Part shown: positions 24,782-39,276 of the stretch, piece by piece
Numbering within the stretch: position 1 is the stretch's first letter
How the letters are laid out: each line of letters starts with the position of its first letter
Source: Aquificota bacterium
GTDB taxonomy: Bacteria > Aquificota > Aquificia > Aquificales > Aquificaceae
Assembly (NCBI GenBank): GCA_030549905.1
Contig: JAUQQK010000001.1
Location: 124,001-188,000, forward strand
Reading direction: 5' to 3'
Length of the DNA stretch: 64,000 nucleotides
Notes under the pieces: model-generated
Database searches by the model: none
What the model was told of the DNA's origin: nothing
What the model saw: the letters and a program-made list of their open reading frames with translations, nothing else
Made by a program: the position numbers and the translations under genes

Positions 24782-24854
24782 GGCCCGGTAGCTCAGCTGG
24801 TAGAGCACCCGGCTGAAAACCGGGGTGTCGGCGGTTCAAATCCGCCCTGGGCCA
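24782..24854 (+). tRNA. tRNA-Phe (GAA)
   Basis: 73-nt cloverleaf: acceptor GGCCCGG/CTGGGCC, anticodon stem CCCGG-CTGAAAA-CCGGG, T-loop GGTTCAAATCC. Confidence 0.95.
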
Positions 24855-34664: not shown

Positions 34665-35378
34665 ATGGAACTCTACAGAGCTTTTATTTACAGATTTTTA
34701 TCGGTAGCCTTTGACGAGCCAACAGAAGAGAGCCTTGAAGCCTTGAGGGGAGGTCTTGATGACCTCTCCCTTTGCCTTTCAAAGATAGGTATGGATTTTG
34801 ATGTGAAAAAACTGGAAAGGCTTTTAGAGACCTTCAGGGAGGAGGAAAACCTGCTTGAGCTTAAAGGTGAATGGAATGCACTCCTTGGTGTCGGACTTAA
34901 AGCTCCCATGTGGGAAACCGCCTATGAGATTGAAAAGGCGGGAAGGAAGTCTCATGAGCTTTCAGATATTGAGGGCTTTTACAGAGCCTTCGGCTTTGAG
35001 GTAAAGCAGGGCTACGAACCAGACGGGCTTATAGCACAGCTCGAATTTTTAGCCCTCCTGCTTTTAAAGATAAACTATGCAAAGGATATGGGTCTTAAAG
35101 AGGAAGAGAAATTAACGGAAAAGGCTTACAGAGACTTTTTCAGAGACCATCTGGGAAGGTGGTACAGGCTTTTCTGCGAGCTTATTAATGAGTATGCGGA
35201 AGTGGAATACTATAAGGTGCTTGGGCAACTTTTCTTTTCTTTCCTTGAGCTGGAAAGAAAGGAGGTGCCAGATATAGTGGATATAGAGAGGTATGTGATG
35301 GAAACTCTTCAAGGCTCAAGCTGGGAATGTGGTATCACTGGAAGAAGACCCCTCAATCCAGAAGCTCCAGAGCCTTAG
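34665..35378 (+). CDS. TorD/NarJ-like molybdoenzyme chaperone
   Basis: YRAFIYRFLSVAFDEPTEESLEAL, LEFLALLLLKINYAKD, FFRDHLGRWYRLFCELINEYAEVEYY. Confidence 0.82.
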   Translation: MELYRAFIYRFLSVAFDEPTEESLEALRGGLDDLSLCLSKIGMDFDVKKLERLLETFREEENLLELKGEWNALLGVGLKAPMWETAYEIEKAGRKSHELSDIEGFYRAFGFEVKQGYEPDGLIAQLEFLALLLLKINYAKDMGLKEEEKLTEKAYRDFFRDHLGRWYRLFCELINEYAEVEYYKVLGQLFFSFLELERKEVPDIVDIERYVMETLQGSSWECGITGRRPLNPEAPEP

Positions 35379-36729
35379 AGAGGACCTCTTCCACCTCCCT
35401 CTGAGAGGGCATTTCCGCATAAACCCTTATTAGAGGCTCTGTGCCGGAGGCTCTCATGAGAAGCCAGCCATCTCCTTCAAAGACCAGCTTGAGACCATCA
35501 AGGGTGTTTACCCTTACCACTTTGTAGTTTCCGAGCCTCTCTGGCGGGTTGCTCATAAGCTCTCTGAGTTTTTGCTTTTTATCTTCCTGCGCATGAAGGT
35601 CTATCCTCTTATAATGGGCTTCTCCGTACCTTTTGAAAAGCTCCCTTATAACCTCCGAAAGGGGTTTGTCTATTAGAAGCAAAAGCTCAAGTATCATGAG
35701 ACCAGAGAAGAGCCCATCCCTTTCAGGAAGGAAATGGACTATTCCATAGCCTCCGCTTTCCTCTCCACCGAATATTACCTTTTCTTTGAGTATGAGCTCA
35801 TTTATGTTTTTAAAGCCCACCGCCACTTCCCTCAGCTCCACCCCTTCATCTTTGCATATCCTGTCCGCAAGGTAGGTAGTAGATACGGTCTTTACCACTA
35901 TACCATCTTTCAAACCTTTGTTTTTCAGAAGATGGTATAAAAGCAAAGCATATATAAGCTGGCTGTTTACAAAATCCCCTTTTTCATCCACAAGGGCTAT
36001 CCTGTCTCCGTCGCCGTCGTTGGCTATGCCCAGGTCTGCACCAAGAGCCTTCACCTTTTGCATGAGTATATGAAGGTGCTTTTCAACAGGCTCTGGTGCA
36101 TGCCCACCAAATAGAGGGTCCCTGTAGCTCCTTATAGCATGAACTGTAGCCTTACTGCCCGAAAGCACATGCTCGTAAGTGCCCGCAGAAGAACCATACA
36201 TGGCATCGTGCACAAGAAGAAGCTCCTTATGAGATAAAAGCTCCATGTTTATGTGGCTCTTTACCCCCCTCATATACTCTCCCCATATGTTTATATACTC
36301 AGGCTCATACTTCTCGGGCTTTATATCCCTCACTTCCTTCAGCCTTTCCTCTACTCTTGCTATAAAGTCCGGCGTGGCGGAGCCACCAAAGGAGTCCTTT
36401 ATCTTATAGCCGTTGTACTCGGGCGGGTTATGAGAGGCTGTTATCATAACACCGTTGTCAAAATTCATGTATTTGACCGCATAAGAAACCATGGGCGTGG
36501 TGCAGGCTTTGTTGGTAAGCAGGGCATAAAAGCCAAGGGTTCTGAAGACCCTGTAGACTTCTAAAGCAAAGGCTTCAGACATGAAGCGGTGGTCGTAGCC
36601 TATTATGACCCTGTTTTTTCCCTGCTCCTCAAGCACCATGGCATGGGCATAGGCTACTTTCCTGACGTTTTCAAAGGTAAAGGTGTCTCCTATAATAGCC
36701 CTCCATCCATCAGTGCCGAACTTAACCAT
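35353..36729 (-). CDS. Phosphoglucomutase/phosphomannomutase
   Basis: FGTDGWRAIIG, GVMITASHNPPEYNGYKI, DLGIANDGDGDRIALVDEKG, GGEESGGYG, RASGTEPLIRVY. Confidence 0.95.
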   Translation of the reverse strand: MVKFGTDGWRAIIGDTFTFENVRKVAYAHAMVLEEQGKNRVIIGYDHRFMSEAFALEVYRVFRTLGFYALLTNKACTTPMVSYAVKYMNFDNGVMITASHNPPEYNGYKIKDSFGGSATPDFIARVEERLKEVRDIKPEKYEPEYINIWGEYMRGVKSHINMELLSHKELLLVHDAMYGSSAGTYEHVLSGSKATVHAIRSYRDPLFGGHAPEPVEKHLHILMQKVKALGADLGIANDGDGDRIALVDEKGDFVNSQLIYALLLYHLLKNKGLKDGIVVKTVSTTYLADRICKDEGVELREVAVGFKNINELILKEKVIFGGEESGGYGIVHFLPERDGLFSGLMILELLLLIDKPLSEVIRELFKRYGEAHYKRIDLHAQEDKKQKLRELMSNPPERLGNYKVVRVNTLDGLKLVFEGDGWLLMRASGTEPLIRVYAEMPSQREVEEVLSKALELLD

Positions 36730-36792
36730 AAGTTCCCCTCTTTAAACATTTTAAGCCTTCTTACAAAGCTTATGCTATATTTATCTTTGTTA

Positions 36793-37890
36793 ATGATACC
36801 ACAAGAGCTTTTGAAGGAAGCCCTACGGAGAAACAGGCTAAAGAGCGAAGCCTTTGAGGGTTTTGAATACATAAGGTTTACAGACGACTTTAAGGAGGTA
36901 CCAAGAGGCACGGCAATATTTAAGGATTTTGTAGTCTGGGGCTATCCGCATATAGGAAGGATATTCCAGCTCAGCACGGGCATAAAAGAGCAGTTTTCAG
37001 CTCCCTTCTGGGTGGAGGAGAAGGTGGATGGCTACAATGTAAGGATATTCCAGCAGGAGGGAAAGGTATATGCCCTTACAAGGGGGGGCTATGTATGCCC
37101 CTTTACCACCGACAGGATTGAAGACTTCATAAACCTTAAGTTCTTTGAAGACAACCCGGACCTGGTGCTATGTGCGGAGGTGGCGGGTCCAGAAAACCCA
37201 TATGTGGAGGAAAGCCCGCCCCATGTGAAGGAAGACATAAGGTTTTTCGTCTTTGACATTATGGAAAAGAACGGACAGAGGTTTCTACCTTACAGAGAAA
37301 AGCTAAAGCTCATTGAAAAATACGCACTTCCCAGCGTGGAAAGTTTTGGGCTTTATAGGAAGGAAAACCTTGATGAATTAAAGGCACTTCTGAGAAGACT
37401 TAACGAGGAAAAGAAGGAGGGTGTGGTGCTAAAAGAAGACTCGGAAAGGGACAAAAGGGTCAAATACATAACAAGCTATGCCAACCTCAACGATATAAGA
37501 ATTACCTCTCTAAACATGCTCGGACTTCCTGCGGACTACTATACAAACAGGCTTTTAAGACTTGCCCTCTTTATTGAAGAGGAAGGACTTGAAAAGAAAA
37601 AGGAGCTATATGAAGAGCTTGGAAGAGCCTTTCTGGAGGGTCTTTTTGATGCCTGCAGGCTATCAAGGGAGGAGGGTAAAGTCTACAGGGTTTTCCGCTG
37701 TAGGTTTAAAAGGAGGGAAAGGGCTTTGATGTTCATAGAGCAGTTGAAACACGCCTCCGTTCATATACAGGTCATTGAAAGGAGGCTGGAGCGAGTTGGA
37801 GAATACTGGCTCCTTGAGTTTGAAAAGGTCTTTTTAAACATGACGGGGCTTTTGGGGCATGTGCTGTCTGGAGGCTCTATAATAGATTAA
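36793..37890 (+). CDS. ATP-dependent RNA ligase, Pab1020/Rnl3 type
   Basis: 365 aa from ATG 36793; nucleotidyltransferase motif [55 protein letters not shown]. Confidence 0.88.
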
Positions 37891-38468
37891 GTTTTCATAG
37901 TCAGGCTTTCTAATATGAACCTGAAGCCCTTCGGGTCTATCAGCTTTATACCCACCTTGTCCGCCCAATCCCTTAGCCCCTCATCGCCAGAAACCAGTAT
38001 GCCGTCCAGCTCGTAAGCAAGCAAAAGCACATCAAGGTCTTCCTTACTGTCTATTATGCCTGTCCTCAGGGCTTCCCTGTATTTCTCCCTCAGTTTGTTT
38101 ATGAGCCTTCCTACATCTTCTTCCGTGAGCCTTCCTGCCTCTTTTGTGTGCTCCTCCGCTATACGAAGCCCCTTGTTTATCCTGTATCTCACTTCTTCAA
38201 TAAACTCATAAAGGAACTCCGCCGGCACCATAAGGTTAAACCTTCTTGGAGACCTGATTCTGACTACCAACTCAAACCTTGGCTTTAGAGAACCCAGCTC
38301 CACCATCTTGTTGAACTCTTCATATACAGATGTGGGCATGTAAAACTGAGCCCTGCTGTGGCTTGCAAGGGTTATAAAGTCCTCTATGGCTCCAAGCTGG
38401 TCCTTCTCAAATTGACTGTACATATCTGGGTTCGTAAAAAGGCTCGTGTCAAGAACGAATATGTCCAT
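37887..38468 (-). CDS. PIN-domain 'RNA ligase partner' protein
   Basis: [61 protein letters not shown]; adjacent to the RNA ligase. Confidence 0.85.
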
Positions 38469-39276
38469 GTATATATCTTACAACAGCACATTTGACCACT
38501 TCATAGGGAACTTCTAAACCCGTCCATATGCGAAAACTTTCCATGCCCTGATACAACAGCATATCAAGACCATCCTTGTAGGCACAGCCCTTCCTTCTGG
38601 CAGACCTAAGGAGGGGCGTATCTTTGTAGATGAGGTCAAAGACACTGTGCCTTTCATTTAAAAGCTCATAGTTAAAGAGGGGCGGGTCATCTTCCTTTAG
38701 TCCTGAAGATGTAGAATTCACTATAAGCTGCACCCTATCAAGGACTTCCTCCGGTTTTTGAACCACCTGAAAACCAAACTCCTCCGCCAGCCTCTCAGCC
38801 CTCTCAAGAGTCCTGTTCCACACATATACCCTTGCCCCTTCTTTTTTGAGGGCGTAAGCCACAGCCCTTGCAGACCCTCCTGCACCAAGAAGCAGAACCT
38901 CCCTGCTTCTAATTTCAGGCATCAGCTGGCTAAGAGCCTTCAAAAAGCCTATCCAGTCCGTGTTGTAAGCATAGACACCTTCCTCTGTAAATTTGAGTGT
39001 ATTGGCAGAGCCTATGGCTTTTGCATGCTCGTCTGGAAAGTCAGAAAGCTCAAGGGCTCTTTCCTTGTGGGGCAGGGTTATGTTAAGACCCCTCACGCCT
39101 ATAACTTTGAAGCCCTTAAGGGCGGTTTCAAAGTCCTCTGGCTTTACCTCAAAGGGCACATAAACGGCATTTAGGTTAAAAAACTCAAAGGCTGAGTTTT
39201 GAAAAATTGGTGATAGAGAATGCTTTACGGGGTATCCCACAATGCCGTAAACATGGCTCTCGCCGTTTATGGTCAT
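38449..39276 (-). CDS. aroE: Shikimate dehydrogenase
   Basis: [67 protein letters not shown]. Confidence 0.95.

Follow-up and report, generated by a model that had tools for sequence, protein, structure and literature searches.

A protein-only RNase P and an Rnl3-type RNA ligase as a convergent gene pair in an Aquificaceae bacterium

The window analyzed here, a 64,000-nucleotide stretch of the genome of a heat-loving Aquificaceae bacterium, carries two genes that meet tail to tail: one encodes an Rnl3-type RNA ligase and the other a PIN-domain protein that is HARP (homolog of Aquifex RNase P), a protein-only RNase P. Where the two genes are co-located they are convergent, in about 70 genomes spanning two domains and no fewer than eight groups of phylum rank, and the trees of the two proteins agree. 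The explanation considered probable is that HARP performs a housekeeping function and that Rnl3 is an accessory enzyme working on 5'-phosphate and 3'-hydroxyl ends such as those that HARP makes.

The pair itself is already known. The HARP-Rnl3 link was published in 2025 on the basis of co-occurrence and co-location, including in Aquificales (Seshadri and Gopalan, PMC12153264), with an orientation described as "typically bidirectional" and about ten tandem cases in groups outside the present sample; the main proposal in that work is that HARP trims C/D-box precursors and Rnl3 circularizes them. The genome of the window fits this description in that both genes are co-located, but the present account differs in specifying the orientation as convergent, with abutting or overlapping stop codons, and in excluding the C/D-box explanation for bacteria. 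Added here are the strict convergence, the agreement of the trees, the exclusion pattern in Aquificota, the lack of a fibrillarin over cut-off in 28 bacterial genomes with HARP, and leads toward RtcB and a tRNA nucleotidyltransferase.

The two genes and their shared 3' end

The ligase gene (36793..37890, plus strand) encodes 365 amino acids. Its start is placed at the ATG at 36793 because the solved homolog 3qwu begins there; a GTG at 36589 was rejected, since it lies inside the neighboring mutase gene and upstream of the homolog's start. The protein is Rnl3, an ATP-dependent RNA ligase of the Pab1020 type named in an earlier, sequence-only reading of the window, as judged from its profile matches and motifs: its TIGR01209 match reaches 426 bits against a cut-off of 137, and it also passes the cut-offs of the Pfam families RNA_ligase and Lig_C ("Ligase Pab1020 C-terminal region"), the latter forming its C-terminal part. 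The nucleotidyltransferase motif set is complete, with motif I KVDG at residues 77-80 (K77; window 37021-37032), Ia TRGG at 96-99, III FVFD, IV EGVVLK at 209-214, and V KYITSYAN at 224-231. The nearest solved chain, 3qwu, is A. aeolicus-like, 63% identical, and named "DNA ligase" in the PDB; the next are 2vug (P. abyssi Pab1020) and 5d1o (M. thermautotrophicus MthRnl), with identities to archaeal chains of 36-40%. The window ligase shares with the archaeal enzymes (2vug, 8uce, 5d1o) the nucleotidyltransferase motifs, Lig_C, and a full-length alignment, but belongs to a bacterial subfamily for which C/D-box RNAs are not expected as substrates. Archaeal Rnl3 members carry out ATP-dependent circularization of 5'-phosphorylated RNA (PMC9014305; PMC5599603), joining 5'-phosphate to 3'-hydroxyl ends (PMC5599603), and an RNA-joining activity is predicted for the window ligase from its family.

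The PIN gene (37887..38468, minus strand) encodes 193 amino acids. Its product matches TIGR03875 ("RNA ligase partner") with 226 bits where 95 are required, NF003344 with 312 bits where 241 are required, and PF08745 PIN_5 with 229 bits, above the curated cut-off; the family match is full-length, covering residues 4-189, and the family matches of both proteins are far beyond chance. The sequence-only reading had placed the protein correctly in the "RNA ligase partner" family and had held that this family has no settled function, a view that reflects an old family name: the protein is HARP, whose RNase P activity has been on record for the A. aeolicus enzyme since 2017 (review: PMC10941002) and for which solved structures and biochemistry are published (PMC10652100; PMC8266387; PMC10941002). 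It is 81% identical to 8ssf, the RNA-free ribonuclease P Hth1307 of Hydrogenobacter thermophilus (PMC10652100), and 74% identical to 8kd9; close relatives cleave pre-tRNA at the 5' end in vitro and form a ring-like oligomer (PMC10652100). The aspartates D7, D138, D142, and D161 shown to be indispensable in A. aeolicus Aq880 (PMC8266387) correspond in the alignment to D7, D140, D144, and D162 of the window protein. All four of these catalytic residues are present, and they are invariant in every aligned HARP that covers them (66-68 of 68); the active site is intact. The window protein shares family, length, and the four aspartates with Aq880 and Hth1307, and at the level of sequence no difference from them was found.

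The stop codons share a TTAA (37887..37890), a four-base convergent overlap in which the ligase stop TAA occupies 37888-37890 and the HARP stop TAA is the complement of 37887-37889, exactly as first read. Upstream of the ligase, a 63-base stretch (36730..36792) separates it from a divergent phosphoglucosamine/phosphoglucomutase-like gene (35353-36729, minus strand); no sigma-70-like site beyond chance was found in this stretch, and ligase expression must start within it or within the mutase-like gene. HARP is the final gene of a tightly packed minus-strand run, its start overlapped by the last 20 bases of aroE (shikimate dehydrogenase; 38449..39276, minus strand) directly upstream. No clear terminator was found at the junction of ligase and HARP. 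In the gene list for window positions 1-43771, four of six convergent pairs overlap, by 4, 12, 16, and 26 bases; the TTAA is therefore no sign of antisense control, and the shared stop by itself is ordinary for this genome. What is unusual is that the convergent layout has been retained over such evolutionary distances. Elsewhere in the window, a tRNA-Phe (24782-24854) is the only Rfam match over its gathering score.

RNase P in Aquificota

The status of HARP, rnpA, and rnpB was tallied by hand in 136 Aquificota genomes, leaving out of the HARP count one genome (G078) with a sub-cut-off match containing internal stops. HARP is over cut-off in 69 of the 136, all in two families: 63 of 64 genomes in Aquificaceae (f1) and six of seven in f3. 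RNase P RNA and RnpA are confined to the other three families, and neither was found in any of the 64 Aquificaceae genomes. HARP alone thus occurs in 69 genomes, and rnpA and/or rnpB alone in 65; two genomes (G055, 87% complete, and G106) have neither form, and none has both. Across Aquificota, the protein and the RNA-based enzyme are mutually exclusive, and in Aquificaceae HARP takes the place of the RNA-based enzyme. In the genome of the window (G000, 99.9% complete) RnpA was not found, and the best rnpB candidate reaches 12 bits at a relaxed threshold, the gathering score being 100. The sole recognizable RNase P of this genome is therefore HARP. The second family with HARP, represented by genus g22 of f3 (G105, G107-G111), has RtcB, and RNase P RNA, RnpA, and Rnl3 were not found in these genomes.

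Linkage and co-inheritance of HARP and Rnl3

Rnl3 is present in 56 Aquificota genomes. It adjoins HARP in 38 of them, with a convergent orientation in 38 of 38 (checked by hand), and in 17-18 of the 56 the genes lie apart or on different contigs. Genomes that we take to be of the A. aeolicus type (g2; G001) carry the genes far apart, at 607 kb and 773 kb in G001; linkage is therefore not required. HARP also occurs where Rnl3 is missing: in family f3, in the five genomes of genus g5, of which two are single contigs, and in G044, which is 99% complete and belongs to the genus of the window. The gene whose stop overlaps that of HARP in G044 encodes an MFS transporter; in genus g5 the neighborhood of HARP includes the mutase gene also present in the window and an NYN-like gene. 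Since HARP persists in these genomes, the RNase P function does not need the ligase: Rnl3 is accessory and dispensable, and HARP is not. HARP of genus g5 (G030-G034) is clearly more divergent, scoring about 173-177 bits against about 220-242 bits.

A scan beyond Aquificota gave 59 ligase loci, in Thermococci, Nitrospirota, Brocadiales (Scalindua and relatives), Thermodesulfobacteriota, WOR-3, Gammaproteobacteria, Tectomicrobia, Methylacidimicrobium, and a DPANN archaeon. HARP is over cut-off in 22 of the 23 ligase genomes tested there, so that the ligase depends on HARP and not the reverse; the co-occurrence asserted by the sequence-only reading is correct. RNA-based RNase P is also over cut-off in at least 14 of 17 scanned bacterial pair genomes outside Aquificota, with a fragment in one more, so HARP in those genomes is not kept merely as an essential RNase P. 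Two genomes with both HARP and Rnl3, G140 (Nitrospirota JdFR-88, locus L123) and G141 (Scalindua RBC_AMX3, locus L127), gave no bacterial type A RNase P RNA in the scan, perhaps because the genomes are incomplete, because a candidate was missed, or because of another replacement.

Co-located pairs are convergent at 56 of 56 loci, a set in which some loci repeat the same genome and a few species are perhaps in two collections, and in all 13 further Nitrospirota pairs. The gap between the genes is -54 to +54 bases in nearly all cases, most pairs abutting or overlapping, and the three exceptions have gaps of +320, +1070, and about +582 bases; neither the length nor the sequence of the overlap is conserved. 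The search for a third partner gene shared across groups gave none: the recurrent matches were frames antisense to the pair's own genes or reflected synteny within a lineage.

The HARP and Rnl3 trees agree (30 pairs, patristic r = 0.905, with 0 of 2000 permutations as high). Such congruence alone is compatible with joint transfer or ordinary descent. In both trees, Gammaproteobacteria/Chromatiaceae, Tectomicrobia, and Methylacidimicrobium group with Aquificota, the support for this placement in the ligase tree being moderate; agreement and placement together point to joint transfer of a two-gene cassette.

What the pair may do

In the preferred explanation, HARP would carry out housekeeping tRNA 5' maturation in the Aquificaceae bacterium of the window, the ribonucleoprotein RNase P having presumably been lost from its lineage. 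Rnl3 would have an accessory part, and the two genes would be inherited and transferred together as a cassette. RNase P products carry a 5'-phosphate and a 3'-hydroxyl. The job of Rnl3 would most likely be the sealing, by repair or circularization, of structured RNAs with such ends, left by HARP itself or by spontaneous or enzymatic hydrolysis followed by healing. That Rnl3 acts downstream of HARP is inferred; because the pair is kept even where an RNA-based RNase P exists, use by the ligase of ends that HARP makes or guards is the simplest inference. The cut-and-join module proposed in the sequence-only reading fits the matching end chemistries of RNase P and Rnl3 and the co-inheritance of the pair, but HARP persists without the ligase, and the module remains plausible rather than proven. 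tRNA splicing was rejected as a task for the ligase, as the 42 tRNA genes found in the genome, covering all 20 amino acids, contain no intron; no intervening sequence was found in the 5' 2100 model positions of 23S rRNA, the remainder of which runs off the contig.

An unlikely alternative is that the two proteins do not cooperate directly, hot or saline habitats favoring HARP and RNA repair independently and adjacency being the relic of one ancestral transfer. This caveat was already raised by Seshadri and Gopalan (PMC12153264), and it is consistent with the unlinked genes of 17-18 Aquificota ligase genomes and with the retention of HARP where the ligase is missing. Co-selection in hot or salty habitats could explain co-occurrence but not adjacency, which, with its orientation, has been kept across all of the phylum-level groups and both domains; moreover, the ligase is hardly ever found without HARP, and the pair extends to mesophilic anammox-type genomes with an RNA-based RNase P. 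Coupling of the two transcripts, whether by colliding RNA polymerases or by antisense pairing where the 3' ends are shared, appears quite improbable. The uniform convergence, the mostly abutting or overlapping genes, and the lack of a clear terminator at the junction would suit such regulation, but the overlap varies widely, three pairs are far apart, unlinked pairs exist, and overlapping convergent ends are common in the genome of the window; the mutual antisense control suggested by the sequence-only reading is likewise not upheld.

Two further proposals would assign the pair a more specific function. The membership of HARP in the VapC-like PIN group (PMC10941002), together with adjacency and compatible ends, invites a toxin-antitoxin-like arrangement in which HARP would cut tRNA or rRNA during stress, with Rnl3 resealing the RNA or restraining HARP. 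This is very improbable: toxin-antitoxin pairs are normally co-directional operons, whereas HARP and Rnl3 are convergent; HARP is the sole RNase P in the genome of the window and survives loss of the ligase in G044, g5, and f3, when loss of an antitoxin should be lethal; and deletion of Rnl3 is viable in T. kodakarensis (PMC9014305). The pair thus lacks both the co-directional layout and the toxin intolerable alone that would mark a type II system. Least probable of all is the published proposal that HARP trims C/D-box guide RNA precursors for circularization by Rnl3 (PMC12153264). It draws on the finding that deletion of Rnl3 abolishes C/D-box RNA circles in T. kodakarensis (PMC9014305), but fibrillarin (PF01269) is over cut-off in five of five archaeal and none of 28 bacterial HARP genomes, at least 23 of which have Rnl3, the sub-cut-off bacterial matches being methyltransferase matches of 40-60 residues. 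The genome of the window likewise has no fibrillarin over cut-off, its one match covering 46 residues at 23.8 bits (cut-off 27). Another substrate is therefore needed in bacteria; C/D-box circularization cannot be the bacterial function and may hold in archaea. The circularization raised by the sequence-only reading accordingly has its precedent in archaeal Rnl3 acting on C/D-box RNAs, which are not expected in these bacteria, none of them with a fibrillarin over cut-off.

A more speculative idea, improbable on present evidence, is that bacterial Rnl3 acts on tRNA 3' ends in the HARP pathway, instead of or besides making circles. Rnl3 could strip or remodel CCA so that HARP can cut, or take part in an end-repair cycle with nucleotidyltransferase and RtcB. 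The archaeal relative MthRnl removes a 3'-terminal adenosine, leaving a 2',3'-cyclic phosphate (PMC5599603), and a 3'-CCA slows HARP 10-fold (PMC10652100); about 10 of the 42 tRNA genes in the genome of the window encode CCA. In seven Nitrospirota genomes (L106, L118, L119, L192, L195, L196, L198) the ligase frame shares bases with the end of a same-strand tRNA nucleotidyltransferase gene of the CBS/DHH/poly(A)-polymerase type; at five other Nitrospirota loci (L185-L187, L191, L194) the divergent neighbor resembles, by eye, glutaminyl-tRNA synthetase, and the ligase follows MnmE in Methylacidimicrobium and KsgA in one WOR-3 genome (also named by eye). These neighbors, with MthRnl and the aversion of HARP to CCA, are a weaker lead toward a role at tRNA 3' ends, the argument from neighbors being post hoc. 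In the genome of the window, tRNA-Pro(tgg) and tRNA-Arg(tct) genes stand with zero spacer (locus L086 3257-3405, contig C25), so that one cut of the RNase P type would yield both the 3' end of one tRNA and the 5' end of its neighbor. A weak partial tRNA-like match (C19:7082-7140, 30.8 bits) gave no tRNA or tmRNA with ARAGORN.

RtcB, also an RNA ligase of the window's genome (C19:12119-13417), differs from Rnl3 both in fold and in the ends it works on, 2',3'-cyclic phosphate or 3'-phosphate together with 5'-hydroxyl. Among Aquificaceae genomes of 95% completeness or more, the set lacking Rnl3 (G030, G032, G033, G034, G044) is exactly the set lacking RtcB, a joint absence that amounts to about two events and, as another weaker lead, also enters the tRNA 3'-end idea because RtcB is the ligase for cyclic phosphate ends; genus g5 (G030-G034), the clade with divergent HARP, lacks both. 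RtcB was rejected as an obligate companion, being absent from Methylacidimicrobium and WOR-3 genomes that have the pair. In several Aquificota (G018, G020, G021, G063, G107, G111, and others) the RtcB frames are 826-972 amino acids long with the match split near residue 49-50, a pattern suggestive of an intein.

Why a protein-only RNase P accompanies an RNA ligase is a question posed in print in 2025, and the comparisons made here set bounds to it: in bacteria the pair must have some substrate besides C/D-box RNAs, the ligase, unlike HARP, can be dispensed with, and the two genes travel as a convergent unit. A natural comparison for circular or end-modified RNAs is offered by Aquificaceae that have or lack Rnl3, among them G044 from the genus of the window.
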